From: Gemmatimonadota bacterium
GTDB lineage: Bacteria; Gemmatimonadota; Gemmatimonadetes; Longimicrobiales; Gaopeijiaceae
Reading direction: 5' to 3'
Length of the DNA: 38,317 bases
NCBI GenBank assembly: GCA_013002885.1
Contig: JABDLS010000001.1
Coordinates: forward strand, 1 to 38,317
Below are positions 10,704 through 37,625 of the stretch, piece by piece. Made by a program: the position numbers and the translations under genes. Position 1 is the first letter of the stretch. Each line of letters opens with the position of its first letter. The notes under the pieces were generated by a model. The model was given only the letters and a program-made list of their open reading frames with translations, was not told the origin of the DNA and did not search any database.

Positions 10704-13324
10704 ACAGGCCCCGGCCTCCGGGGTGGATGGCTCGGCTACTCGGGGCCCTGCTGCCCGATGAGGAGAAGGACTTCATCCTGGGGGATCTGGAGGAGGAGTT
10801 CCACCGGTGGGAGGTCGATGGAGGCCGCGTGAACGCGGTGCTCGGATACGTGTGGGAGGGGACGCGGACGGTGCTGTCCCTGGTGGCATACACCTTGGAT
10901 GTGGAGGGGATGATGACGGGAATCGGGAACGACGTGCGTGGCGCCCTCAGGACCTTTCGTCGTAGGCCGGGCTTCTCGGCGGTGGTCGTGCTCATGCTCG
11001 GTCTTGGGGTCGGCGGTGCCACAGCGGTTTATAGCGTGCTGAGGGGTGTCGTCCTATCACCCCTCGAGTTCGAGGATCCTGACGAGGTCGTGATGCTCTG
11101 GGGGCGAAGCGCCGAGTATCCGCGTGCTCCTCTAACCGTGGGCGACTACAAGGCGCTCGAAGAGGGCGTTCGCTCGTTCGAAGAGGTCACCGCCTCGTGG
11201 AGCAACACGGCGCTCCTCCTGGGAGACGGTGAGGCAGAGCAGGTCAGCGTAGGATGGGTGACGCCGACCTACTTCGATGTGGTCTCGGTCGACCCGGCCC
11301 TGGGCCGCACACTGCAGGAAGGGGATCACCTCGGGGTCGTCATTTCGCACGGTCTCTGGGCGAGCAGGTGGGGAGCTGACCCGGACGTGATTGGTCAATC
11401 TGTCCGGCTGCCTGGCGAGACCTTCGAGGTCGTCGGCGTACTACCGCGGGACCGCAACCCGAACCTCTCGAGCTTCGCCGGGAACCGAACTTCGTTCGAC
11501 CTGTGGCGCCTGCAACCGCCGGAGTGGCTGGAAGGGGAGGACCGTTCCGTCGGATGGCTCCGCGCAACCGCCCGATTGCGTGATGGGGTCACCCTCGAGG
11601 CTGCCCAGGCCGAAACCGATGCATTCATTCAGAGGGTGAACGAGACGGTCAGTGCCCGGGACGGAGGAACGGATCTTCGCGTGGATCTCATCCCGGCGAG
11701 ATCTGATCTCGTGGGTGACATCGCCCCGACGCTCTGGATCCTGCTGGCTGCCGTTCTGGGGGTGCTCCTGATCGCCGCTGGCAACGTGGCGAACCTGATG
11801 CTGGTACAGGGAGAGGCCCGGACGTCTGAGATCGCTCTTCGGGCGACCCTCGGCGGCTCGCGGACCCGTTTGGTTCGTCAGCTCATGGTGGAGAGCGGCG
11901 TCCTGGCGGTCGCCGGCGGCATGACGGGTGTGATGCTCGCATCGGTCGGGCTTTCGGGTCTGTTGCGTCTGGCGCCCCCGAGCCTGCCTCGGCTCGAGGC
12001 GGTGACCCTCGACTGGACGGTATTCACCTTCGCCCTCGCAGTGACGGCGCTCACCGCGGTGGTGTTCGGGCTTGCTCCTGCCATCCGAGCGAGCCGTTCC
12101 GACCTGACCGGAGCACTCAATGACCGCCGGGCCACGGCGGGGCCGCGGCGTCGTAGGCTGAGCCGAGGCCTCATTGTCGCCGAGGTGGCGCTCTCGCTGA
12201 CCCTCCTGACAGCTACAGGGCTTCTCCTTCGCAGCCTCTCGGGCCTTCGAGACGTCGACTTGGGGTTCGATCCGGACGGCCTCGTGACCTTCGCCGTCGA
12301 GGCCCCTGATTGGGGTGGAAGCGCGCAAGAGGCCGCGGCGACGATGACTGCGTATCTGGAAGCGATGCGTTCCGTTCCAGGGGTACAGGCGGCTGCGTTC
12401 ACCAACCGCGTGCCTCTCGGAGGTGGCCTCTTTACCGGGAGCATGCGCTCCGAAGACATGGTGGCGGCGGACGCCCCCACCATCGAGGCCTCGTTTCGCT
12501 GGGTGACCCCGGACTTCTTCGACACGTTCGGCTCGCGGCTCCTTCAGGGCCGCGCGTTCAGGCCGGAAGATGGCCTCGGGGTGGTGATCGTCGACGAGCG
12601 GGCCGCCGACCTTGCGTGGCCCGGTCAGAATGCTCTAGGGCGACGGGTCGAGACCTCTTCCGTCGGTGGCGAGCCCCAGTGGGCCGAAGTCATCGGCGTG
12701 GTCGAGCCGATGAAGCACGCCGGGGTTGCGTCGGCGGCTCAAGAGACGGTGTTCCTTCCCATGCTCGCCGCGGCCCACCAACAGAACTTTCGCTACGTGG
12801 CCCTTCGGGTCACCGGCGAGCCACTCGCGGTCCTCGGCCCTCTTCGGGAAGCCGTCCGAGCCGTGGATGGGTCCGCCGTCGTCGCGCGCGTCAGGACGAT
12901 GGCCCAGCTGGTCCGCGACGACACGTCCGGGACCCGGTTTGCCAGCTTTCTCCTCACGGTCTTCAGTGGGGTCGGACTCCTGCTCGCGACCGTGGGCCTC
13001 TACGGTGTGATGTCGTACTCCGTGCGGTTGAGGTCGCGTGAAATCGGCATCCGGGTGGCTCTAGGAGCAGACAGGGAGTCCATCCTGCGCGAGGCCCTGC
13101 GCTCGGGTCTCGTTCTTCTGGGGGCCGGCATTCTACTGGGTGTTGGCATCTCCCTCGGGGCCGGGCGCGTTCTGGAATCCCTCCTCTTCGGCGTCGGCGC
13201 TAGAGACGCAGGGACTCTGATAGGGGCCTCGGTCCTGATGCTGGTTGTCGGCCTGGTGGGCACCGGCCTTCCCGCCCGCGGCGTTCTGGGCCTGGACCCG
13301 GCGGCCACGCTTCGGGAGGAATGA
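10700..13324 (+). CDS. ADOP-type orphan ABC permease (duplicated MacB/FtsX)
   Basis: 874 residues starting at a GTG overlapping the padR stop. The first roughly 60 residues (MARLLGALLPDEEKDFILGD) match the permease-prefix domain of acidobacterial duplicated orphan permeases. Two MacB_PCD/FtsX units follow. The first has a membrane helix at about residues 92-115, a periplasmic domain, and three or four helices from about 340 to 465. The second begins with a helix near SRGLIVAEVALSLTLL, then another periplasmic domain (TPDFFDTFGSRLLQGRAF) and three C-terminal helices. There is no ATP-binding domain in the protein or next to it, as usual for this group. Substrate and partner ATPase are unknown. 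MacB relatives act as mechanotransmission exporters of peptides, lipoproteins or antibiotics. Confidence 0.9.
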   Translation: MNRPRPPGWMARLLGALLPDEEKDFILGDLEEEFHRWEVDGGRVNAVLGYVWEGTRTVLSLVAYTLDVEGMMTGIGNDVRGALRTFRRRPGFSAVVVLMLGLGVGGATAVYSVLRGVVLSPLEFEDPDEVVMLWGRSAEYPRAPLTVGDYKALEEGVRSFEEVTASWSNTALLLGDGEAEQVSVGWVTPTYFDVVSVDPALGRTLQEGDHLGVVISHGLWASRWGADPDVIGQSVRLPGETFEVVGVLPRDRNPNLSSFAGNRTSFDLWRLQPPEWLEGEDRSVGWLRATARLRDGVTLEAAQAETDAFIQRVNETVSARDGGTDLRVDLIPARSDLVGDIAPTLWILLAAVLGVLLIAAGNVANLMLVQGEARTSEIALRATLGGSRTRLVRQLMVESGVLAVAGGMTGVMLASVGLSGLLRLAPPSLPRLEAVTLDWTVFTFALAVTALTAVVFGLAPAIRASRSDLTGALNDRRATAGPRRRRLSRGLIVAEVALSLTLLTATGLLLRSLSGLRDVDLGFDPDGLVTFAVEAPDWGGSAQEAAATMTAYLEAMRSVPGVQAAAFTNRVPLGGGLFTGSMRSEDMVAADAPTIEASFRWVTPDFFDTFGSRLLQGRAFRPEDGLGVVIVDERAADLAWPGQNALGRRVETSSVGGEPQWAEVIGVVEPMKHAGVASAAQETVFLPMLAAAHQQNFRYVALRVTGEPLAVLGPLREAVRAVDGSAVVARVRTMAQLVRDDTSGTRFASFLLTVFSGVGLLLATVGLYGVMSYSVRLRSREIGIRVALGADRESILREALRSGLVLLGAGILLGVGISLGAGRVLESLLFGVGARDAGTLIGASVLMLVVGLVGTGLPARGVLGLDPAATLREE

Positions 13325-28246: not shown

Positions 28247-28855
28247 TCAGGCCAGGGCGTCGGCCCAGTGCTCCTCGCTGATGACCGCGATGGGGACGCC
28301 CCGCTCCGCGTACTGGACGACCTCGTCGAGGAGGCCGCCGAAATCGCCCTGCGACCAGTCCGCGGCGGCTATGGCACCAATCACCACGAAGTCCGTCCGG
28401 CGATTGACGCTCCGCTCGCAAATCCCGCCACGCTCCCGCACCTCTCTCTCGCAGGCGTGGAGGGGGCCGTACGCCATCTCTCCACCGAAAACGAACGTCT
28501 GGCCCTCGAAGACGACTTCGGGGGGCGGACCGGTGAGTGGTAGATCGGTGGCGAGGGGGTAGCCGCCCCCGAAGCCCGACGGATTCTCAGCGAGCTGGCT
28601 GAGCATGGAGGCCAGCCGCTGGCGCTCACGTTTGTCCGCCCGCCCATCCATGAAGATCCGCTCCAGACGCCTGGCGAGGAGGTTGGCTGGGTACCGGGTG
28701 GCGATCTCCGGGTTCTCCTTCGCCCAGTCCGACAGGCGTTCCGCCTCCTCCGCCGAGACGTCGCCGTCGGCGATAACGCCTCGCACGAGTCCAACCATCT
28801 CGGCGAGGCCCTGCTCGACGCGACGCTGAGCTTTGAGCTGGGTGGCCCGATTCAC
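28247..28855 (-). CDS. TerB-like helical domain plus BRCT-domain protein
   Basis: 202 residues. The first roughly 90 residues are helical with VRGVIADGDVSAEEAERLSD and LERIFMDGRADKRERQRLAS. These two acidic D-G-x-x-x-x-E turns are reminiscent of TerB-type folds. The C-terminal half resembles a BRCT domain of the DNA-ligase type: VFEGQTFVFGGEM, EVRERGGICERSVNRRTDFV, VVIGAIAAADW, and VPIAVISEEHW as the final Trp-containing helix. BRCT domains bind phosphopeptides or DNA ends, and this combination without an enzymatic domain suggests a regulatory or DNA-associated role. The start is 40 bases after the stop of the CotH-like gene on the same strand, so they may be co-transcribed, but no functional link is obvious. 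Confidence 0.75.
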   Translation of the reverse strand: MNRATQLKAQRRVEQGLAEMVGLVRGVIADGDVSAEEAERLSDWAKENPEIATRYPANLLARRLERIFMDGRADKRERQRLASMLSQLAENPSGFGGGYPLATDLPLTGPPPEVVFEGQTFVFGGEMAYGPLHACEREVRERGGICERSVNRRTDFVVIGAIAAADWSQGDFGGLLDEVVQYAERGVPIAVISEEHWADALA

Positions 28856-28895
28856 GAATTCCTGCCCATCGGGGAATCAGTCCGAGTGCTCGAGA

Positions 28896-30008
28896 TCACC
28901 GTCCGGTGTTCATGTCGCGACACTCGTCGATGATCTCGTCCTCGAACTCCTCCGGGTCGTCGACCACCTTCCAGAAGTCCTCGAAGTACTCGAGCATGTC
29001 CTTGGCGTCGTCTTCGTCGAAGCGCTCGTACCCTTGAGCGGCGAAGCCATTGATCAGTGCTTCGATGTCCCCGCGCTTGTCCGCGAAGGCGGAGGTCGCG
29101 GCAGCATGGTTCAGTTCCGGCCGACAGAAGCCGCGGTAGAGACGCTGGGTCACACGTCGAATCTTGTTCTGAAGGGCCTCCGTGACGGTCGCGTATCGAG
29201 CGTTGACGAGGCCGGCGAAGTCGAAGTCGTATGGGACGGTCAAAAACCGCGCGTCTTCCGTGCGAATCAACTTCACGTTGTGGAAGAAGACGGGCGACCA
29301 GTCGACGTTCCCGATCATGTAGTTGAACATGGCCACCTGGACCGAGTACTCCGCCCACGCCCGTTGGGGGGCGAACTGGGTCACGTCCTGGTGGGTCGCT
29401 CGCGCCCGTTCCGCCATGCGGTCTTCGTCTTCGATGAGGAAGCCGAACTTGGTCCGGGTGTCGTAGTCGTCCTCGATGTCTTCGTAGGTGATCTCCACCA
29501 ACCGCACCCGGAAGCTCTGTGGGGTGAACTCGTTGAAGATGCGGTACGCCAGGTACTCGTCGAAGACGTAGTTCTGGTAGTTGTCGCTGCCGTCGTTGCA
29601 GGGAGTGACGAGCTTCAGCTTGTCCTGACCCTCGAAAACCGTGCCCTCCATCTGACTCGTGGGGAAATCGAGGCGAAGGGGCGGGAAGTTGCAGTTGCGC
29701 TTGTTCCGCCGGAAGTTGCCGCGGGTGCGGGTGTCCACCGGCTTCACGACCTCGCTGCCGTCGCTGTCGATAAAGGTCAGGGTGCCCTCGACTTCCACCG
29801 AATCGTTGCGCTCGTCGCGGAGCCATTCGATGTCCGTCCGAAGGGTCATGCGGATGGGCTCATGAGACTGGAAGAGTGGCGCGTTCTCGGCGGCCTCGGC
29901 ACGCTCGGCGTACTCTTCCGGGGTGGGGATCACGACTTCCTGACCGGCGAGGCCGAAGGGGGTTAGGAAGAGCGAGAGGAGGGCGGCGGGGAGGCTGCGT
30001 CGATCCAT
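28896..30008 (-). CDS. CotH-kinase-like secreted protein
   Basis: 370 residues from ATG 30008 (AGGA close upstream). ATG 30026 also has a GGAG box and adds six residues. The signal peptide is LPAALLSLFLTPFGLAGQ. The body has the CotH pattern: TRTRGNFRRNKRNCNFPPLR (RGN then Lys), GQDKLKLVTPCNDGSDNYQN, FDEYLAYRIFNEF, VRLVEITYEDIEDD, GFLIEDEDRM, then NYMIGNVDWSPVFFHNVKLI and VPYDFDFAGL, which hold the Asn/Asp and DxD-like metal-site residues expected in CotH kinases. The assignment is by eye, with no search. A secreted protein kinase-like enzyme would act outside the cytoplasm. It is divergent from the DUF4956 gene (150-base gap), matching the CotH/VTC/DUF4956 clustering I recall from other bacteria. 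Confidence 0.68.
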   Translation of the reverse strand: MDRRSLPAALLSLFLTPFGLAGQEVVIPTPEEYAERAEAAENAPLFQSHEPIRMTLRTDIEWLRDERNDSVEVEGTLTFIDSDGSEVVKPVDTRTRGNFRRNKRNCNFPPLRLDFPTSQMEGTVFEGQDKLKLVTPCNDGSDNYQNYVFDEYLAYRIFNEFTPQSFRVRLVEITYEDIEDDYDTRTKFGFLIEDEDRMAERARATHQDVTQFAPQRAWAEYSVQVAMFNYMIGNVDWSPVFFHNVKLIRTEDARFLTVPYDFDFAGLVNARYATVTEALQNKIRRVTQRLYRGFCRPELNHAAATSAFADKRGDIEALINGFAAQGYERFDEDDAKDMLEYFEDFWKVVDDPEEFEDEIIDECRDMNTGR

Positions 30009-30158
30009 GGTGTTCCTCGGGTGCATCGGGTCTCCGCCAAGAGTATCCGGCGGCGCGCCCGTTTGTCCAGCGGTGGGTTGCTCTTCATCGGGCTTCGGGC
30101 GCATCATTGGGCGCTGGGGACACAGACGTGACCCTCTCACCCCGAAAGACGGACGTGC

Positions 30159-31226
30159 ATGGCTTCTCGACGAACGAAGGGCCTCCGTGGCCAAGGCCTG
30201 GGGCGGGTCGTCGTCTACTACCTCCTCTTCGCCGTGGCCCTGGTCCTCCTCGTCCAGTACGTGCCCTCCATACGCGAGGTGGTTTCGGGCGCCCGGTTGA
30301 ACCAGCTCGGCACGGGACTCGAAGAAGCCTTCGGGGTCGTCGCTCCACCCATCGGTCAAGAAATCGGGGCTGGACCCTGGTCGGGTGCCATCGTGGCCGG
30401 ACTCTCGATGCTCGGGGCCCTGGCCATCATGGTTCCAGTGACCCTCGTCTACATGATCACCCGAAGCCGTCGTGGATACGACGAGTCGGTGGTCCACACG
30501 CTGCTCATCCTGCCCGTGGCCGTCACGGGAATCGTGATGATCGTGCAGAACAGCGTGGCGCTGGCCTTCTCCCTTGCGGGGATCGTCGCGGCGGTGCGTT
30601 TTCGCACGACGTTGGAAGACACCAAGGATGCGGTCTACGTCTTCCTCGCCATCGGCGTGGGTCTGGCCTCTGGCGTCCAGGCCCTCGGGATCGCCTTGAC
30701 GCTGTCCCTGATCTTCAACCTGGTCATCGTGGCTCTCTGGTTCACCAACTTCGGCAACGTCTACGCTGAGCAGCGGAGCCGGGACGGTGCCATGGGGGTT
30801 GGCGACGTCCTTGCCGGCCCTCATTCAGCCCTGGCCGCCCTCCAGGTCGGCGACCGGGCGGTCCTCGAGGCGGTGTCCGTCGGCGAGATCAAGGAGATGG
30901 CGGAGCGCGCGGTTCGCTTCGAGCGCCACATCACCGAGGAGCGGCAGAAGAACAAGCGGAAGCGGGCCAATGCCCTCATCATCGTCCACTCGGCGAGCGC
31001 GGAGGAGGCGCAGACCTACGTCGATGGCGTGCTCACGGAGTTCGCCGTCCGCTGGAAGCTCGTGGAGATGGAGCCGACGTCCACGGGCCAGATGCTCGTG
31101 TATGTGGCTCGCCTCGACGACCCTTCCGCCGAAGGGGCCGTCATGGACCGGCTGAGGGAAGGGCACGGGGGCGTCGTCTCCGCCGCCGAGTTCAGGTCGC
31201 TCAAGGGACTGAAGCCCAGAAAGTGA
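30159..31226 (+). CDS. DUF4956 integral membrane protein
   Basis: 355 residues. Membrane segments: about 14-34, 70-98, 110-140 and 160-195, then a soluble C-terminal half (about 200-355). The hallmark DUF4956 stretch is clear: LAFSLAGIVAAVRFRT, LEDTKDAVYVFLAIGVGLAS. The C-terminus has a basic coiled stretch (EERQKNKRKRANALII) leading to a ferredoxin-like alpha/beta region (EEAQTYVDGVLTEFAVRWKL). DUF4956 is of unknown function but is frequently adjacent to VTC-type polyphosphate polymerase genes, which suggests it handles or senses polyphosphate at the membrane. Its stop overlaps the GTG of the next gene (GTGA). It is first in a three-gene coupled operon ending in the CYTH/PPK1 fusion. Confidence 0.88.
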   Translation: MASRRTKGLRGQGLGRVVVYYLLFAVALVLLVQYVPSIREVVSGARLNQLGTGLEEAFGVVAPPIGQEIGAGPWSGAIVAGLSMLGALAIMVPVTLVYMITRSRRGYDESVVHTLLILPVAVTGIVMIVQNSVALAFSLAGIVAAVRFRTTLEDTKDAVYVFLAIGVGLASGVQALGIALTLSLIFNLVIVALWFTNFGNVYAEQRSRDGAMGVGDVLAGPHSALAALQVGDRAVLEAVSVGEIKEMAERAVRFERHITEERQKNKRKRANALIIVHSASAEEAQTYVDGVLTEFAVRWKLVEMEPTSTGQMLVYVARLDDPSAEGAVMDRLREGHGGVVSAAEFRSLKGLKPRK

Positions 31227-32110
31227 GGTACCTCGAGCTGATGACGGCGGTCCTGGTCGCCTGCGGGCCGGCCGAAGACGAGGATCAGGCGCCGAGGCCG
31301 GGCGACATAGATCGGGCCGCCCCCGAAGTCGATGAAACCGGGAGCCAGGTGACGCTCCTCAGCTACGACTTCACCACCGCCGATGCCCGTTTCGAGCTTC
31401 CTGGCCGCCTGGACGAGATCTCCGGCTTGGCTTTCACGGCCGACGGACGACTCCTGGGCCATGACGACGAACGCGGTCGAGTCTACGAGATCGACCCGGG
31501 CAGGGGGGACGTGGGCAAGCAGTTCGACCTTGGAAGCGGAAACGTACAGGACGACTTCGAGGGGATCGCAGCCATCGGTGAGCGTCTCTTCCTGGTGTCC
31601 AGCACCGGCTTCCTCTACGAGTTTCGAGAAGGTGCAGACGAAGTCGATGTGCCCTATCGGGTTACGGATACGGGCCTTGGCTCGTCGTGCGAGGTCGAGG
31701 GACTCGACTTCGACCCCGACTCCGAAGCCCTGCTTCTGGCGTGCAAGCGCGCCGACGGAGACGGCCAGTCGCTGAGGTTGTATGCCCTTCCTGTGGGCGG
31801 GGGAGCAGCGACGTCCATCGACGTGGCTCGTTCCGAACTGGCCGCATCGGGCCTCGACCCCGACTTCCAGCCCAGCGCAGTGGCGGTGACCCTGGACGGT
31901 ACCTGGATCCTCCTCTCTGCGGTCACGGAGAGCATCGTCGAGATCGATTCGTCGGGCCGCGTTCTCGCCGGTGTGGCCCTGGGACGACAGAACCACCCCC
32001 AGCCCGAGGGGCTCGCGATCGGTGCGGATGGAACGCTGTACATTGCCAACGAAAGGAACGGTGATGATCCCCACATCACCGTGTACCGACGCCAGGGAGA
32101 CGGCGCGTGA
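31223..32110 (+). CDS. SdiA-regulated/phytase-like beta-propeller lipoprotein
   Basis: 295 residues from GTG 31223, overlapping the previous stop. A short signal sequence ends at lipobox VLVAC (C14). An acidic linker leads to a propeller: LDEISGLAFTADGRLLGHDD, GRVYEIDPG, VQDDFEGIAAIGERLFLVSS, CEVEGLDFDPDSEALLLACK, DFQPSAVAVTLDGTWILLSA, and HPQPEGLAIGADGTLYIANE. The repeated EG[IL] plus acidic residues match the SdiA-regulated and esterase-like phytase family, some members of which hydrolyse phosphate esters. The protein is probably exposed on the periplasmic side. Its stop overlaps the GTG of the polyphosphate kinase fusion. Phosphate-related activity here is suggested only by context. Confidence 0.78.
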   Translation: MRYLELMTAVLVACGPAEDEDQAPRPGDIDRAAPEVDETGSQVTLLSYDFTTADARFELPGRLDEISGLAFTADGRLLGHDDERGRVYEIDPGRGDVGKQFDLGSGNVQDDFEGIAAIGERLFLVSSTGFLYEFREGADEVDVPYRVTDTGLGSSCEVEGLDFDPDSEALLLACKRADGDGQSLRLYALPVGGGAATSIDVARSELAASGLDPDFQPSAVAVTLDGTWILLSAVTESIVEIDSSGRVLAGVALGRQNHPQPEGLAIGADGTLYIANERNGDDPHITVYRRQGDGA

Positions 32111-35100
32111 TCCGAAGGCTCAACGTTCCAGTGCCCGATACCGCCCGCTTTCTCGCCCTGACCGAGAAGCGACGACCCCTGGGCATGTGGACGACGACGC
32201 CCGGGTATCGCCTTCTCCGCGATACCTACTTCGATACCGCAGACGGGGCGCTCATGGAGCGGGAGATGACGTTGCGGATCCGCTCGGAGGCCCGGGGACA
32301 TCAGCTTCTGAAGCTGTCCATCAACCGTGAGGTCAGCCTCCAGGGTGTGGTGGAACTGGAGACATTCGAGACGCCCATGGTCCAGGGGCTCTACGAGACG
32401 CTGGCCGGGGACTCCGAGATCGCGGCTCGGATCCGGCAAGTGGTGGAACCGGCAGCCCTGCGCCCCCAGGCCGCCATGGACATCGACCGCGAAACGCGTG
32501 AGCTGAAGTCGGGACGCTTCGGGCGAGCAACCCACCGCATGGCCTTCGACGAGGTCATCGCGCATGCTCCCGGCGCGGCGAGGGAGTTCCAGGAGATCAC
32601 CCTCATCGAGCTCACGAGCGGCAAGGTCACGCTCGAAGAGTTGGGTGACCGGCTGCGAGAGGGTCACGGCTTCACGAGTGACGGCCTGGACACGATTCGT
32701 CGGGTCCGAAGCTACCTGGTGGCCGGCAACGGGGCGGGACCCTCGGCCATTCCGCAGGACGTCCAGGTGGCGCTCATGCTCACCCGGAACGCGGAAGTCG
32801 CGCTGGTGGAAGGCCCCGACGGCCTCACGCTTCCGACCTCCCGCGGGTCTGGCGAGGACATCGCCCGTGAGTACCTCGCTGACCTCACGGGTGTCGAACC
32901 GACGGGCACCGACCTCGATCTGGTGGGCTTCGCCGCCGCCAAGAAGGGAGGATCCGACCTGGAGGTCTGGCTCCATGAGCTCTCGGCAGGGGTCCAGCCG
33001 TCCGGGTTCATCTGGATGCCGGTCGTCGAGTTGATGCAGCGTCTGGGCGCGCCCAGACTGCGGGACCCTGGCCTCATCGCCACGATGCTCATGCTGGTGC
33101 GCTCCGAGATCGGCGAGCGGATGCTGGCCGACGTGCCCCTGGGTGCCGTCCCCCCTCGGGAGCTGCCGCTGGAGCCGCGGGAGGATGGCCTCGAGCCGGG
33201 GAAGGGTCCCGACGACTATCTCGACCTGGAATTGAGCATTCTCGACTTCAACCAGCGGGTCTTGGAGTTGGCTGAGGACGGGTCGATCCCACTTCTCGAG
33301 CGCTTCCGTTTCCTCTCCATCTTCTCCAGCAACCTTGACGAGTTCTTCGTGGTCCGGACGGGGCGACTCAAGGAGGAGGTGGCCCGAGGTGAACAGGACG
33401 CCTACGAGGATCTATCAGCCCAGCAGCTTCTCGACCTCGTGGCCGTGAGGGTCAGAGCGCTCCTCGCGCGGCAGTATTCATGCTTCCAAAGGGTGCTCGA
33501 ACCGGCCCTCGCACAATGCGGCGTGCGGATCGTGGACTGGGAGGACCTCGATCCCGCGGCACAGGCCGGACTCCGCCAGCGGTTTGCGGATGAGATCTTC
33601 CCGCTCATCACGCCGCTTTCCATGTCCTCGGGTCCGGGAAGGTCCTTTCCGAGGCTCATCAGCCTGGGCCTCGCGCTGGCGGTGTCCCTGCGCCGTGGTG
33701 CCGAGGGCAAGGCCGAGCTGGGGTACGTGCCGATTCCCGACGATGTGGACCGATTCCTTCCGGTTCCCGACTCCCAGGACGTCATTCCCGTGGAGCGGGT
33801 CATCGGTGCCAACGTCGACCAGCTTTTTTCGTCCGCCGAGGTCGGTCGCACCTATGCCTTCCGGGCGAGCCGCGTCGGCGACGTGGACATCGACGAGGAC
33901 TCGTCGGGATCGCTCCTCCTCGACATCCAGGACGAGGTCGAGGCCAGGCCCTACAAGCCCATCATCCGGTTGGAGGTGGAGGCTCGGATGCCCAGGGAGG
34001 TCCGCGCGTTCATCCTCAACTCCATTCGCGACGACCAAACCATGGATGGAGCCACCGTCGATGCGTCGGACGTCTACGAGTTGCCGGGTCTCGTCGATCT
34101 CACGGGTGTTGCCGATCTGTGCGATCTCGAGGTGGAGGAAGGACTCTTCGAGCCGTATACGGCTCACCCTCTTCTCCAGGAGAACGGCTCGATCTTCGAC
34201 TTGCTGGCCGAGCGCGACATTCTCTGCCATCACCCCTTCCACGACTTCGAGGCGACGGTAGGACGTCTTCTCAACGAGGCAGCCCGCGACCCCGACGTCG
34301 TGGCCATCAAGCTCACGCTCTACCGGACCGGGCGTCGATCACCCGTCATGGATGCCCTCCTGGAGGCTCTCGCCCAGGGCAAAGACGTCTCGGTCTTCGT
34401 GGAGCTCAAGGCCCGCTTCGACGAGGAAAGCAATATCCATTGGACGAAGCGGTTGGCCGACGAGGGCGCCCGGGTCGTCTATGGAGTGGTCGGATACAAG
34501 ACCCACGCGAAAACCGCTTTGGTCATACGGCGCGAGGCTGAAGGAATCCGCAGGTACGTTCACATCGGGACCGGCAACTACAACGCCACCACCGCCCGGT
34601 TCTACACCGACTTCGGGCTCATGTCCGGCGATCCCGACCTGGGAGCCGACCTCAACGACTTCTTCAATGAACTCACGGGGGGGGCCGGTCCGCCGGAAAC
34701 GCAGTTCCGGCGGCTTCTGGTGGCGCCCCACTCGCTGGTTCAAGGCATCGAGCGGATGATCCGCCGGGAGATCGAGCACGCCGAGGCGGGCCGACCCGCC
34801 CGGATCCAGGCGAAGCTCAATGGGCTCGCCGACCGGAAGGTGGTCCGCACCCTCTACGAAGCAGCTCGAAAGGGAGTCGAGATCGACCTCATCGTCCGCT
34901 CGATCTGCACCCTGCGTCCCGGCGTGCCCGGTCTGTCGGACACCGTGCGGGTGTACAGCATCCTCGGGCGATTCCTCGAGCACTCGAGGATCTACTACTT
35001 CGAGAACGCCGGTCAAAGCGAGTACTACATCGGGTCGGCCGACTGGCGGGCACGGAACCTTCGCCGCCGCGTGGAAGTGGTGACCCCGGTGGACGATCCC

Positions 35101-35280
35101 GCAGGCCGGGGACTTCTTCGGGCGGTCTTCGACGCACAGCTGGAGGACCCGCGAGCCTGGACGCTTCGAGCGGACGGGGCCTTCGAGCGCGCACGCGGGG
35201 ATGGGCCCGATTCTCAGCATCGCTTCATGGCAACCCGCGGAGGATTGGATTTGGCCGAGGCCGAGACCAGCGGTACCTGA
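32107..35280 (+). CDS. ppk1: CYTH domain / Nudix-like region / PPK1 polyphosphate kinase fusion
   Basis: 1057 residues from GTG 32107; a usual PPK1 is about 690. Residues 1-205 form a CYTH-like tunnel fold (RDTYFDTADGALMEREMTLR, LLKLSINREVSL, REFQEITLIELTSGKVTLEE), but the N-terminal ExExK motif is replaced by MIRRLNVPV, so metal binding is doubtful. Residues about 219-335 have a Nudix-like layout without the catalytic Glu residues (AREYLADLTGVEP). From about 369 a complete PPK1 follows: LDFNQRVLELAED, FLSIFSSNLDEFF, GYKTHAKTAL (H800), YVHIGTGNYNATTARFYTDF (H819), FLEHSRIYYFEN (H959). The 19-residue gap between the first two His matches E. coli H435/H454. It makes polyphosphate from ATP. The operon with DUF4956 and the propeller is translationally coupled. 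Confidence 0.93.
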   Translation: MIRRLNVPVPDTARFLALTEKRRPLGMWTTTPGYRLLRDTYFDTADGALMEREMTLRIRSEARGHQLLKLSINREVSLQGVVELETFETPMVQGLYETLAGDSEIAARIRQVVEPAALRPQAAMDIDRETRELKSGRFGRATHRMAFDEVIAHAPGAAREFQEITLIELTSGKVTLEELGDRLREGHGFTSDGLDTIRRVRSYLVAGNGAGPSAIPQDVQVALMLTRNAEVALVEGPDGLTLPTSRGSGEDIAREYLADLTGVEPTGTDLDLVGFAAAKKGGSDLEVWLHELSAGVQPSGFIWMPVVELMQRLGAPRLRDPGLIATMLMLVRSEIGERMLADVPLGAVPPRELPLEPREDGLEPGKGPDDYLDLELSILDFNQRVLELAEDGSIPLLERFRFLSIFSSNLDEFFVVRTGRLKEEVARGEQDAYEDLSAQQLLDLVAVRVRALLARQYSCFQRVLEPALAQCGVRIVDWEDLDPAAQAGLRQRFADEIFPLITPLSMSSGPGRSFPRLISLGLALAVSLRRGAEGKAELGYVPIPDDVDRFLPVPDSQDVIPVERVIGANVDQLFSSAEVGRTYAFRASRVGDVDIDEDSSGSLLLDIQDEVEARPYKPIIRLEVEARMPREVRAFILNSIRDDQTMDGATVDASDVYELPGLVDLTGVADLCDLEVEEGLFEPYTAHPLLQENGSIFDLLAERDILCHHPFHDFEATVGRLLNEAARDPDVVAIKLTLYRTGRRSPVMDALLEALAQGKDVSVFVELKARFDEESNIHWTKRLADEGARVVYGVVGYKTHAKTALVIRREAEGIRRYVHIGTGNYNATTARFYTDFGLMSGDPDLGADLNDFFNELTGGAGPPETQFRRLLVAPHSLVQGIERMIRREIEHAEAGRPARIQAKLNGLADRKVVRTLYEAARKGVEIDLIVRSICTLRPGVPGLSDTVRVYSILGRFLEHSRIYYFENAGQSEYYIGSADWRARNLRRRVEVVTPVDDPAGRGLLRAVFDAQLEDPRAWTLRADGAFERARGDGPDSQHRFMATRGGLDLAEAETSGT

Positions 35281-35452: not shown

Positions 35453-36391
35453 ATGACCCACGCCCTCGGAAACGCGCTGAAGCTGTTCGTGGCATTTGGC
35501 CCGGCTTTCGTGGTTTGCGCCTGCGCCTCCGAGCCGGGGGGCGCCGACGTGCGCACCCAATCGCGAGACGCCCTACGCACGGCCCTCGACTCGGTCGTCC
35601 AGACCAGCGGTGCAGAGGTCGTCGGTATCTACTACCGGAGCCTCGCCGAAGGTGGTGACTCGATCACCATCGACGCCGATGTCCGGATGCACGCCGCGAG
35701 CACCATGAAGGTCCCGGTCATGCAGCGGCTCTTCCTGGACCATCAAGAAGGCCTGCGGAGTCTCGACTCGACGCTTCCGGTGAAGCGGACCTTCCGATCC
35801 ATCGTCGATGGATCGACGTACGACCTTCCGCCCGAGTCGGATTCCGACACCACCTTCTATGGGGAAGTGGGTGGTCAGGCGACGATCAGAGAGATGGTCG
35901 ACCGAATGATCACCTGGTCCAGCAATCTGGCGACCAACATCCTCATCGAGGCGGCCGAGCCCGAGCGCATCGAGACGATGCTCGCCGAGATCGGTGCCGA
36001 CTCCATGTCGGTGCTCCGCGGCGTAGAAGACCTGAAGGCCTTCGAGGCCGGGCTTTCGAACTCCACGACCGCCCGAGGTCTTGGTGCAGCCATGGCGGGA
36101 ATCGTCGAATCGGAGGTCTTCTCCGAGGAGGTCCGGGAAGGGATGCTCGACATTCTTTCCCGCCAGCATTTCACGGGGGGTATTCCATCGGGGGTACCCG
36201 ACGGCGTACGGGTGGCCAACAAGACCGGGTGGATCACGGGAATCCACCATGACGCGGCGATCGTTCTTCCCGAAGATGCATCGACCTATGTCCTGGTGAT
36301 CCTGGTCCGCGGCCATCCTGCGGAGGATCAAGGTGAGGCGATGATCGCCGACCTGTCTGCGTTGGTCTGGGCCCACCAGATGGGGAATTGA
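35453..36391 (+). CDS. Class A beta-lactamase-like serine hydrolase, probable lipoprotein
   Basis: 312 residues. The N-terminal hydrophobic segment ends near VVCACAS, with C22 or C24 a possible lipidation site. Catalytic motifs of the penicillin-binding/beta-lactamase fold: AASTMKVPVM (S83-x-x-K86), WSSNLATN (S156-x-N158, the SDN-like motif) and ANKTGWITG (K257-T-G). The omega-loop Glu of true class A enzymes (ExxLN) is not obvious. The corresponding region reads RGVEDLKAFEAGLSNSTTAR, similar to generic serine hydrolases of the Beta-lactamase2 group. A beta-lactamase or peptidase role cannot be separated by sequence. It begins about 50 bases after tRNA-Arg. Confidence 0.85.
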   Translation: MTHALGNALKLFVAFGPAFVVCACASEPGGADVRTQSRDALRTALDSVVQTSGAEVVGIYYRSLAEGGDSITIDADVRMHAASTMKVPVMQRLFLDHQEGLRSLDSTLPVKRTFRSIVDGSTYDLPPESDSDTTFYGEVGGQATIREMVDRMITWSSNLATNILIEAAEPERIETMLAEIGADSMSVLRGVEDLKAFEAGLSNSTTARGLGAAMAGIVESEVFSEEVREGMLDILSRQHFTGGIPSGVPDGVRVANKTGWITGIHHDAAIVLPEDASTYVLVILVRGHPAEDQGEAMIADLSALVWAHQMGN

Positions 36392-36412
36392 AGGGCGAGC
36401 GCTACCCTTTTT
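36391..36412 (+). terminator. Weak intrinsic terminator candidate after the serine hydrolase
   Basis: AAGGG (36391-36395) and CCCTT (36405-36409) form a 5-bp stem with a 9-base loop, followed by a run of T to 36412. It sits in the narrow gap between convergent genes and overlaps both stop regions. The stem is short, so the call is tentative. Confidence 0.3.
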
Positions 36413-37625
36413 CGGTCGTGTCCACCCTGACTCCGGCGTCCAACGTCCGATGAACCGGGCATCGATCAGCGATCTCCATGAGGCGGGCGCGCTGCTCTTC
36501 GTCCAGCGGCCCGACGAGCTCGATTTCCCGGTCGATGACATCGAGTCGCGGGTCCTCTTCGCAATTTTCGCAGTCCTTGGCGTGGATCCGCCGGTGCTTC
36601 AGGCTGACGCGTGCCTCCTCCAAGGGCCACTCCTTTCGTCCAGCGTACATCTGGAGCGTCATCGACGTACACGCTCCCAACCCGGCGATGAGGTAGTCGT
36701 AGGGTGTCGGTCCGGCGTCCGCTCCTCCCACCGACGCCGGCTCGTCGGCGACGAGGACGTGCCGCCGGATGGCGATGTCGGTGTGGAAGGTCCCTTTGCC
36801 TGTCCGGGTCACGGCTCGGTCCGCCTCGCGGAGCTCGTCGATATCAGCCGGCCCATCCCGCAGGTCGACGTAGCGGCTGGCCCAGGCGGCGAGGACGGTG
36901 GCCACGTATGCCGAGTCCGCCGAGTCGGCGAGCAGGTGGTCGGCACCGTCCAGTGAGACGAAGCTCTTCGGGTGCTTGGCCATCCGGTAGAGCCTGGCCG
37001 CGTTGTCGACGCCCACGATCTCGTCGACGGGCGAGTGCATGAACAGCAGGGCTGCGTCGAGGCCGGAAACCACCTCCTCGACGTGTTGGGCCCTGAGGTC
37101 GTCGAGGAACTGCTTTTTGATATTGAAGGGGCGGCCGCCGATACGAACCTCGGCCATGCCACGTTCTTCGATCTCCTCTGCCGACGCCTCCACGTGTCGG
37201 AGTACGTGCTCGGGGTCTGCAGGAGCGCCGATGGTCGTAACGGCCCGTACGGCGGGCAGTGAGGCGGCGGCCTGCAACACCGCGGCTCCACCCAGCGAAT
37301 GTCCGACGAGAATCGAGGGCCCAGCGCCCAGTTCATTTGCCATGAAGCGACCGGCCGCAACCAGGTCCTCGACATTGGATGAGAAGTTGGTATCGGCGAA
37401 GTCACCCTCGCTTTCTCCCAGCCCCGTGAAGTCGAATCTCAGGACGCCAACGCCACGACCGGCGAGCGCTTTCGAGATGTCGACCGCTGCTCGGATATTC
37501 TTCGTGCAGGTGAAGCAATGGGCGAACAGCGCCCACGTGTGGGGCCGAGGGCCCGGTGGCGCTTCGATACGGGCGGAGAGGAGGTGGCCGTCCACTCCTT
37601 CGAACTGGATCTTTTCGGTGGGCAC
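36402..37625 (-). CDS. Bifunctional alpha/beta-hydrolase / OsmC-family protein
   Basis: 407 residues from GTG 37625, with AGGGAG five bases upstream. The N-terminal alpha/beta-hydrolase (about 1-255) shows ILVGHSLGGAAV (nucleophile Ser), FMHSPVDEIVG (Asp) and DGADHLLAD (His), with FDFTGLGESEGDF near the start. The C-terminal OsmC domain (about 265-407) has LGACTSMTLQMYA and ADRCPVHRTLDAG, supplying the two Cys of the peroxidatic pair. OsmC domains reduce organic hydroperoxides. This fusion is a recognised family annotated as bifunctional alpha/beta hydrolase/OsmC. The hydrolase substrate is unknown. Cytoplasmic. It converges with the serine hydrolase at a 10-base gap. Confidence 0.93.
   Translation of the reverse strand: MPTEKIQFEGVDGHLLSARIEAPPGPRPHTWALFAHCFTCTKNIRAAVDISKALAGRGVGVLRFDFTGLGESEGDFADTNFSSNVEDLVAAGRFMANELGAGPSILVGHSLGGAAVLQAAASLPAVRAVTTIGAPADPEHVLRHVEASAEEIEERGMAEVRIGGRPFNIKKQFLDDLRAQHVEEVVSGLDAALLFMHSPVDEIVGVDNAARLYRMAKHPKSFVSLDGADHLLADSADSAYVATVLAAWASRYVDLRDGPADIDELREADRAVTRTGKGTFHTDIAIRRHVLVADEPASVGGADAGPTPYDYLIAGLGACTSMTLQMYAGRKEWPLEEARVSLKHRRIHAKDCENCEEDPRLDVIDREIELVGPLDEEQRARLMEIADRCPVHRTLDAGVRVDTTEKG

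Follow-up and report, generated by a model that had tools for sequence, protein, structure and literature searches.

A PPK1-based polyphosphate locus with a DUF4956 membrane protein and a putative CotH-type kinase in Gemmatimonadota

What connects a polyphosphate kinase to a DUF4956 membrane protein and an exported kinase-like protein, whose genes lie together at positions 28,247-35,280 of a 38,317-nucleotide stretch of a Gemmatimonadota contig (JABDLS010000001.1; the whole stretch is referred to as the window)? To our knowledge, DUF4956 has no known function, and we know of no source of phosphate donor for kinases outside the cell. A sequence-only reading of the window proposed a variant polyphosphate module, in which a CYTH domain fused to PPK1 takes the place of a VTC polymerase. 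The association of CotH, polyphosphate polymerase and DUF4956 genes, on which it drew, is indeed published (PMC7112168 and PMC12345266, in the available parts of both).

Organization of the locus

The CotH-like gene (28896-30008, minus strand, 370 aa) diverges from a run of three plus-strand genes, encoding a DUF4956 membrane protein (30159-31226, 355 aa), a beta-propeller (31223-32110, 295 aa) and a CYTH-middle domain-PPK1 fusion (32107-35280, 1057 aa). Both gene overlaps within the run, at 31223 and 32107, read GTGA, and all four genes were found where the sequence-only reading had placed them. The 150 bp between the divergent starts (30009-30158) presumably form the promoter region, in which a scan based on consensus only finds a single weak sigma-70-like site, on the minus strand (30069-30042). 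A TerB/BRCT-like protein of 202 aa (28247-28855, minus strand) is encoded 40 bp downstream of CotH, its Pfam matches to TerB (E 0.014) and BRCT (0.069) both falling under the cut-off. A homologue adjoins CotH in all seven distinct loci of the window layout that extend past CotH (the window, L025/L127, L026/L129, L029, L130, L131 and L132), and co-transcription of the two genes is possible.

The CYTH-PPK1 fusion

By all profile tests the polymerase of the locus is a PPK1, with a CYTH domain attached at its N-terminus. Four Pfam domains (PF13089, PF02503, PF17941 and PF13090; 6.3e-30 to 2.8e-67) cover the whole catalytic core at residues 371-1037 (33217-35217, plus strand), and TIGR03705 (poly_P_kin) scores 703 bits against a cut-off of 466. 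Residues H800 and H959 of the core are kept in 78/78 aligned PPK1s, and by motif we take them to be the equivalents of H435 and H592 of E. coli PPK1. These two are the catalytic histidines of the E. coli enzyme (PMC6537752, in the part available). Judged by its sequence, the fused core would make polyphosphate from ATP, as proposed. The fusion is the sole PPK1 found in the window's genome (89% complete), in which a PF09359 search returns no VTC match. A general housekeeping role everywhere is ruled out for the fused form, with seven of the eight fusion-bearing f3 genomes also carrying an ordinary-length PPK1, in a different clade.

The CYTH (triphosphate-tunnel) domain occupies 32107-32730 on the plus strand (PF01928, 2.3e-8), and its AlphaFold2 model (mean pLDDT 88) has the predicted tunnel fold, matched by Foldseek to ygiF (5a60, 9e-11) and to the VTC complex (8i6v_D, 2e-7). 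Of 59 search matches, 14 (the best at 3.9e-13) were classed separately, as CYTH proteins of other kinds. Catalytic CYTH/TTM domains carry the metal-binding motif ExExK on strand 1. A sequence scan finds it in none of 38 distinct proteins (a few are truncated N-terminally), which makes it improbable that the domain serves as a further polymerase or triphosphatase of the ordinary type; with the motif missing and PPK1 intact, we reject it as the polymerase. The idea that a CYTH-PPK1 fusion fills a VTC slot thus survives in part: the PPK1 does carry a CYTH domain, and VTC (PF09359) is matched in just one of 59 relatives, where it adjoins a canonical DUF4956 gene, but the CYTH domain lacks ExExK, and the middle domain had been missed.

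This middle domain (32740-33144, plus strand, about residues 212-346) is possibly Nudix-like. The best natural PDB match of its 33-sequence profile is the ADP-ribose pyrophosphatase 1v8u, at a weak E of 0.05, and Foldseek aligns it with the Nudix hydrolase 9jax at 5e-5, but with an rmsd of 10.7 over a long alignment. None of the 33 members matches a Nudix family in Pfam, and the generally known Nudix box pattern gives zero matches in the sequences of alignments A2 and A3.

The membrane protein and the exported components

The DUF4956 and CotH-like names given by the sequence-only reading both survive profile searches, DUF4956 being the firmer. PF16316 matches the membrane protein at 49.2 bits against a cut-off of 30.6 (6.3e-13), and at E <= 0.01 all 44 DUF4956 sequences of alignment A4. 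The AlphaFold2 model (mean pLDDT 83) predicts long helices and a C-terminal ACT-like (ferredoxin-like) domain, and a fold search yields zero PDB matches below 1e-3.

For the CotH-like protein, PF08757 scores 31.1 bits against 23.8 (2.2e-7), covering only profile positions 2-77 of 322. The start at 30008 was chosen by eye for its signal-peptide-like N-terminus, and the open frame extends to 30824. Among 32 aligned homologues, only six match PF08757 at E <= 0.01, and those of L202 and L205 do not reach the Pfam cut-off; residues D236, N244, D261 and D263 are invariant, and we take D236 and D261/D263 to be the CotH catalytic Asp pair. A PDB search returns zero sequence relatives for these proteins, and NCBIfam offers no family name for either the CotH-like or the DUF4956 protein. 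The product is best called a putative CotH-type kinase, a name that profile searches support and that is the weakest-backed of the module's assignments. The exported kinase-like protein of two other families runs on into an Omp85-like barrel. The N-domain of these kinase-barrel proteins finds nothing convincing among PDB sequence relatives; its hhalign match to the CotH-like protein is weak (E 0.014, probability 3%), the aligned part spanning the D and DFD/DRD motifs.

The beta-propeller matches PF13449 (Phytase-like, 2.8e-8) and PF06977 (SdiA-regulated, 3.7e-8). Near its N-terminus stands a lipobox-like LVAC, a pattern shared by 7 of 22 homologues, and the protein is probably exported; it may be a sensor or hydrolase, as the sequence-only reading proposed.

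Recurrence and linkage

The order DUF4956, propeller, CYTH/PPK1 is kept in all seven fusion-bearing genomes of the window's family, its own included, and the CotH-like gene is divergent in all five loci whose contig reaches it (the window, L025, L026, L028 and L029). This recurrence rules out a module unique to one genome, one of the outcomes that would have counted against the sequence-only reading. Many Gemmatimonadota, and a small number of other bacteria, have a polyphosphate kinase gene near DUF4956, and an exported kinase-like protein is often encoded close by; two contigs labelled Gammaproteobacteria/Pseudomonadales hold DUF4956, propeller, CotH-like and unfused PPK1 genes.

A PPK1 lies within 10 kb of DUF4956 at 16 of 31 above-cut-off places, where uniform placement predicts 0.2; the 15 places with no PPK1 at that distance include several on short contigs. 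Among 59 relatives, PPK1 is found in 28 of 29 DUF4956-positive genomes, the remaining one having VTC, versus 12 of 30 DUF4956-negative ones (Fisher 2.6e-6, uncorrected for kinship), and the DUF4956 and VTC profiles both match the same three of 14 control genomes, that of Corynebacterium glutamicum among them. Across 80 loci, a kinase-like gene accompanies DUF4956 in 59 and PPK1 in 34; in the 36 with full flanks, the counts within 7 kb are 28 and 15. Neither PPK1 nor a CYTH part lies within 7 kb in 44 of the 80, so DUF4956 with CotH also exists without an adjacent polymerase. VTC is matched at 0/80 by an insensitive model built from one sequence. The genome of L187, with DUF4956, propeller and CotH-like genes, gives zero PPK1 matches. 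Of the 13 relatives from the same genus, nine give no match to the fusion and none to PPK1.

In a quick-search tree, built after removal of identical sequences and of matches covering fewer than 560 profile positions, 42 of 78 PPK1 rows are module-type and form one clade (SH-aLRT 100), comprising CYTH-fused PPK1s, unfused linked PPK1s and four DUF4956-PPK1 proteins. The last, in four genomes (L161, L163, L170 and L177), combine DUF4956 and a full PPK1 in a single open frame lacking CYTH, with PPK1 taking the position behind the membrane part that the ACT-like domain otherwise occupies. One polypeptide thereby holds both parts, which places DUF4956 in a biochemical context. The ACT-like domain is absent from these four and from the L205 DUF4956 homologue, and is therefore not essential to the DUF4956/PPK1 link. 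Nor does the association need the CYTH domain: besides these four, unfused PPK1s stand in six loci (L107, L174, L179, L180, L202 and L205). Genes for CHAD, a second PPK1 and Ppx/GppA come after the fusion in L161; the CHAD gene, a separate one, is Pfam-checked and has homologues in eight other loci. The kinase and propeller HMMs find no match around the fusions of L161, L170 and L177, and the L163 locus is just 3.8 kb long. L202 and L205 have a PPK1 of a different lineage within the same gene set. Their rows, with those of L199, L145 and L147-L149 (the latter four upstream of DUF4956), fall outside the module clade, which argues against a strict DUF4956 rule.

Proposed mechanism and alternatives

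We favor, with somewhat better than even confidence, a membrane-coupled polyphosphate module, in which PPK1 synthesizes polyphosphate at a DUF4956 partner, probably coupled to export, alongside an exported kinase. Its connection with polyphosphate stands on good evidence. The basis is observed: the parts themselves, the repeated linkage between them, the fusions of DUF4956 with PPK1, the clade that the PPK1s form, the intact catalytic histidines and the loss of ExExK. The PPK1 core would polymerize ATP-derived polyphosphate in the cytoplasm, working with the DUF4956 protein, to which it is fused in some relatives and which the fusion may contact in the window's organism. As a consequence of this partnership, the growing chain would form at the membrane and probably be passed into or through it, comparable to yeast VTC, which couples synthesis to translocation. 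Since the metal-binding ExExK is lost, the CYTH and middle domains probably do not cut the chain but bind it, guide it or serve as phosphate sensors. Once exported, the CotH-like kinase and the propeller would work beyond the inner membrane; the kinase might modify substrates at the cell surface, keeping pace with the supply of polyphosphate, and exported polyphosphate might find its use outside the cell. Against this reading stand the DUF4956 places and loci that lack a nearby PPK1, the L187 genome, the lack of kinase and propeller matches around the DUF4956-PPK1 fusions, the S. intermedius aggregation results described below and the zero count of PDB fold matches for DUF4956. A bolder version, which we regard as rather unlikely, makes DUF4956 an inner-membrane channel fed by PPK1, the exported polyphosphate serving as phosphate donor (or substrate) for secreted CotH-type kinases where ATP is absent. 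It would account for the company of CotH, polyphosphate polymerase (VTC or PPK1) and DUF4956 in unrelated bacteria.

The likeliest of the competing explanations, though a doubtful one, is regulation: an MgtC-like DUF4956 with an ACT-like cytosolic domain would sense phosphate or nucleotide and act at the membrane as the on/off switch of PPK1, polyphosphate would remain in the cell, and the kinase and propeller would be separate envelope regulators. The C-terminal ACT-like fold points this way, the MgtC C-terminal domain (2lqj, E 0.02) being among its weak matches to small alpha/beta domains, as do weak PF16316 matches to two MgtC genes of relatives (G051, 7.4e-5; G050, 1.7e-4; overlapping places with equal open frames). 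A CYTH domain without ExExK would fit sensing, and SIR_1592, presumably a DUF4956 protein, is described as MgtC plus ACT (PMC12345266, in the part available). The DUF4956-MgtC comparison itself is weak, however (hhalign E 0.055), the fusions and the L205 homologue do without the ACT-like domain, and this reading does not account for the exported proteins so often encoded nearby.

It is also conceivable, at a low probability, that DUF4956 and CotH together constitute a module for a surface polymer (exopolysaccharide or coat), with the polymerase an optional add-on or mere neighbor. Kinase-like genes are commoner than PPK1 beside DUF4956, and L187 has both module genes in a genome with no PPK1 match; the Gram-positive trio sits in pel loci (PMC7112168, PMC12345266), and deletion of the presumed DUF4956 and CotH genes alters Pel, as far as the available part of PMC12345266 reports. 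Such an add-on would hardly be expected to yield direct fusions, one of them beside CHAD, PPK1 and Ppx/GppA, a dedicated PPK1 clade, another PPK1 lineage in company with the same genes (L202 and L205), or the near-universal presence of PPK1, or once VTC, in DUF4956-positive relatives. The patchiness within the genus is what a chance neighborhood of an ordinary PPK1 amid unrelated genes would predict, but given the linkage, fusion and clade results, and the fact that these genes turn up together again in several families and in records from other phyla, its probability is negligible.

Comparison with known systems

The combination may be undescribed, as the sequence-only reading supposed, which agrees with the literature found among open-licence PMC papers; in these, searches on membrane-bound polyphosphate kinases and on Gemmatimonas polyphosphate kinase gave nothing bearing on the module. 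With canonical bacterial PPK1 (E. coli type, 1xdo/1xdp) the enzyme shares the full four domains and both catalytic histidines, while differing in its N-terminal CYTH/middle or DUF4956 extension, its separate clade and its membrane gene partner. CYTH-CHAD proteins such as ygiF (5a60) provide the best CYTH fold match and a polyphosphate context; here, PPK1 replaces CHAD and ExExK is lost. The MgtC family resembles DUF4956 in the ACT-like C-terminal fold and in weak profile cross-matches, whereas homology, at the hhalign E given above, is not established.

Like the module, the eukaryotic VTC complex ties a polymerase to a membrane partner and includes a TTM/CYTH fold (PMC9911596, in the part available). 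In VTC the TTM fold polymerizes, whereas here PPK1 would do so beside a TTM fold lacking ExExK; DUF4956 gave no sign of homology to the membrane subunits of VTC, and translocation is what we infer for the module. If export holds, bacteria would have a PPK1-based counterpart of VTC, coupling synthesis to translocation.

Closest are the accessory genes of Gram-positive pel loci (PMC7112168; SIR_1592-1594, PMC12345266; available parts), which encode a secreted CotH kinase, a polyphosphate polymerase and DUF4956 together, the S. intermedius counterpart of DUF4956 presumably being the protein with MgtC transmembrane and ACT parts. In S. intermedius, deletion of the presumed DUF4956 gene and of the CotH-like gene lowered aggregation, an effect that the available part of PMC12345266 does not describe for the polymerase gene SIR_1593. 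The trio is thus already published, and the form described here is a variant on it: the polymerase is a PPK1 with a middle domain and a CYTH domain lacking ExExK, a propeller is added, an Omp85-like barrel may follow the kinase part in relatives, and some DUF4956 proteins are fused to PPK1.

Gene content of the module

The sequence-only reading had claimed a variant polyphosphate module of four genes, all of which are found in the window where it had placed them. A CotH-like gene (28896-30008, minus strand; Pfam CotH 2.2e-7, covering only positions 2-77 of 322 in the profile) diverges from a plus-strand run of three genes, consisting of a DUF4956 gene (30159-31226; Pfam 6.3e-13), a propeller gene (31223-32110; Pfam Phytase-like 2.8e-8, SdiA-regulated 3.7e-8), and a CYTH/PPK1 fusion gene (32107-35280; Pfam CYTH 2.3e-8 and four PPK1 domains). 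Pfam backs both the CotH-like and the DUF4956 name, and the two reported GTGA overlaps are present at 31223 and 32107. A TerB/BRCT-like gene (28247-28855, minus strand) lies 40 bp downstream of CotH, and a homologue adjoins CotH in all seven distinct loci, the window among them, that share this layout and continue beyond CotH. The genome comprises 4.0 Mb in 156 contigs, C122 being the window, and is 89% complete; in it, a search with the PPK1 middle domain located PPK1 at a single place, the fusion. Downstream of the module, a Beta-lactamase2-type protein (1.9e-44; 35453-36391, plus strand) directly follows a tRNA-Arg, and an alpha/beta hydrolase joined to an OsmC-like domain is encoded at 36402-37625 on the minus strand.

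Domain architecture of the CYTH/PPK1 fusion

The fusion comprises 1057 amino acids. An AlphaFold2 model of residues 1-361, built from an alignment of 22 rows, has a mean pLDDT of 88. Foldseek identifies its N-terminal part as a triphosphate-tunnel (CYTH) domain, with E. coli ygiF as the top match (5a60, 9e-11) and yeast VTC complex chain 8i6v_D also matched (2e-7); Pfam finds CYTH in 19 of 22 members (E <= 0.1). The ExExK motif, expected near the start of a CYTH domain, occurs near the N-terminus in none of 38 distinct proteins, a few of them incomplete at the start, and relics are kept in a few, namely ETELN in locus L135 and IEVKL in L148. The PPK1 catalytic-site residues H800 and H959 are kept in all 78 aligned PPK1s. 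Since these histidines are conserved and ExExK is absent, the PPK1 looks working and the preceding CYTH domain looks non-catalytic. The proposal that a CYTH domain fused to a bona fide PPK1 takes the VTC slot therefore stands for the PPK1 (four Pfam domains, NCBIfam poly_P_kin at 703 bits, both histidines) and does not stand as worded for the CYTH domain, which lacks ExExK and is followed by an additional middle domain. This domain, at roughly residues 212-346, is possibly Nudix-like. A Foldseek match to Nudix hydrolase 9jax reaches 5e-5, though with an rmsd of 10.7, and the domain's profile (33 sequences) reached 0.05 against ADP-ribose pyrophosphatase. Pfam detected Nudix in none of the 33 members, and no Nudix box was found in the middle-domain sequences searched.

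Recurrence among Gemmatimonadota

Among 59 genomes surveyed, the window's own included, the fusion N-terminal part was matched in 23. DUF4956, propeller and fusion follow one another in all seven fusion-bearing genomes of the window's family, so the neighbourhood is not unique to one genome, and the CotH-like gene is divergent in all five members whose contig extends that far. Of the 16 fusion-bearing genomes in two other families, 13 encode next to the fusion a large kinase-barrel protein, whose N-terminal half is kinase-like and whose C-terminus resembles Omp85; DUF4956 lies in the same stretch in 10, and a second kind of propeller is nearby in 7. The fusion in G037 is without both kinase-barrel and DUF4956 neighbours, and G046 and G057 are interrupted by contig ends. 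Examples of kinase-barrel genes located between DUF4956 and the PPK1 fusion, among others in these families, are those of L034 (10543-13272, minus strand), L042 (8319-11069, minus strand) and L036 (5386-8580, plus strand). Of four such proteins scanned, only that of L042 exceeded the Pfam cut-off for the Omp85-like C-terminus (7.8e-10). The N-terminal half bears kinase-like D...D.D motifs, whose register suggests kinship to CotH, the profile comparison being weak.

A phylum-wide sample of 249 genomes yielded 45 strong N-terminal-profile matches (E 2e-49 or better) in 43 genomes, with an open frame of at least 888 codons in 42 of the 45; the PPK1 part was checked in the loci retrieved. In nine of 13 same-genus relatives (G001-G004, G006, G007, G011-G013), no match to the fusion or to any PPK1 was found, and polyphosphate kinase is thus patchy within one genus.

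Linkage of PPK1 and DUF4956

DUF4956 exceeded the cut-off at 31 places in 29 of the 59 genomes, and PPK1 lies within 10 kb at 16 of these places, versus 0.2 expected. PPK1 is present in 28 of the 29 DUF4956-positive and 12 of the 30 DUF4956-negative genomes (Fisher 2.6e-6, uncorrected for kinship); the remaining positive genome, G049, has VTC adjoining a canonical DUF4956. Of 14 control genomes, the same three are matched by the DUF4956 profile and by the VTC profile. A midpoint-rooted PPK1 tree of 78 rows, from a quick search without bootstrap, has one clade (SH-aLRT 100) that unites 29 CYTH-middle, 3 CYTH-only and 4 DUF4956-fused proteins with 6 linked PPK1s without detected fusion, one of which (L109) is interrupted by a contig end.

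The DUF4956 alignment was also used for a pattern-based scan of the named-species collection, which gave 326 relatives; the best 80 loci were taken. These are mainly from Gemmatimonadota, with a few labelled KSB1, Rubricoccaceae, Pseudomonadales, Gammaproteobacteria and Kuenenia, the last (67% GC) possibly misbinned. Within 7 kb of DUF4956, these best 80 loci hold a kinase-like gene (CotH-like or kinase-barrel) in 59, PPK1 in 34, propeller in 24 and VTC in none, the VTC model being insensitive. For the 36 loci flanked by 7 kb or more on each side, the counts are 28, 15, 11 and, with the same insensitive model, 0, respectively; two hold none of these. In L205 (45% GC), the gene order is DUF4956, propeller, an opposite-strand phosphatase-like gene, unfused PPK1 and CotH-like, flanked by a monomeric isocitrate dehydrogenase and a TPP enzyme; by eye, the phosphatase-like gene (11462-12565, minus strand) shows metallophosphoesterase-type motifs. 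L202 holds the same four parts, DUF4956, propeller, unfused PPK1 and CotH-like. The CotH-like proteins of both loci obtain good scores with the CotH-like HMM of this analysis and stay below the Pfam CotH cut-off. The PPK1s of L202 and L205 are placed outside the Gemmatimonadota module clade, so the same genes are accompanied by a second PPK1 lineage. On a contig of 6.1 kb, L187 (labelled Pseudomonadales) carries DUF4956, propeller and CotH-like genes; no PPK1 was matched in its genome. A small YbjN-like protein is encoded just upstream of DUF4956 in L111 (7408-7830, plus strand) and at 12 further ORF matches, some being one gene present in two loci; the loci concerned show no PPK1.

The most telling new fact is the fusion of DUF4956 to a complete PPK1 in one open frame, observed on the plus strand in L161 (9974-12763), L163 (717-3581), L170 (9641-12580) and L177 (9941-12766). 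The DUF4956 part is matched at 6e-14 to 9e-9 and the sequence is continuous into PPK1, which takes the place of the ACT-like domain after the membrane part; the DUF4956 HMM match ends at 213-236. In L161, the fusion is followed on the opposite strand by a CHAD protein (6.8e-36; homologues in eight other loci), a second PPK1 and Ppx/GppA. The surroundings of the fusions in L161, L170 and L177 yielded no CotH-like, kinase-barrel or propeller gene; L163 spans just 3.8 kb.

Possible function and comparison with known systems

Read most simply, the module would be a polyphosphate synthase linked to a partner in the membrane. In yeast VTC, according to the available text of PMC9911596, the polymerase domain lies above a membrane channel, and translocation is coupled to synthesis. 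The module would resemble it in having a polymerase at a membrane partner. By this analogy, DUF4956 may serve as a channel or for docking; R147 and R149 are among its invariant residues, and L105 and L106 show a similar RYR stretch in their canonical DUF4956. The kinase and the propeller both look exported, which suggests that the product matters on the outside; polyphosphate would then be exported and used there. The main rival explanation is regulation by an MgtC/ACT-like sensor instead of export. It gains from weak matches of the DUF4956 profile to MgtC genes (G051:C48 and G050:C193), which hint at a distant relationship between DUF4956 and MgtC.

The clustering of CotH, polyphosphate polymerase and DUF4956 genes, taken as known in the sequence-only reading, is indeed published: the available text of PMC7112168 describes them accompanying pel loci of streptococci, clostridia and bifidobacteria. 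In S. intermedius, the portion of PMC12345266 at hand reports that deletion of SIR_1592, an MgtC TM + ACT protein that we take as the DUF4956 member of the trio, or of SIR_1594 (CotH) reduced aggregation and shifted Pel amounts in opposite directions; for the polymerase gene SIR_1593, it describes no effect of this kind. Its authors found the trio nowhere outside pel loci. In the available text of the open-licence PMC papers searched, three of which name DUF4956, we found no description of PPK1 with CYTH or DUF4956, which agrees with the suggestion that the combination may be undescribed. As the trio is published and, within these sources, such a PPK1 is not reported, the window module is a variant of a known association: the company of CotH, polymerase and DUF4956 is already known, and the PPK1-based variant is new.
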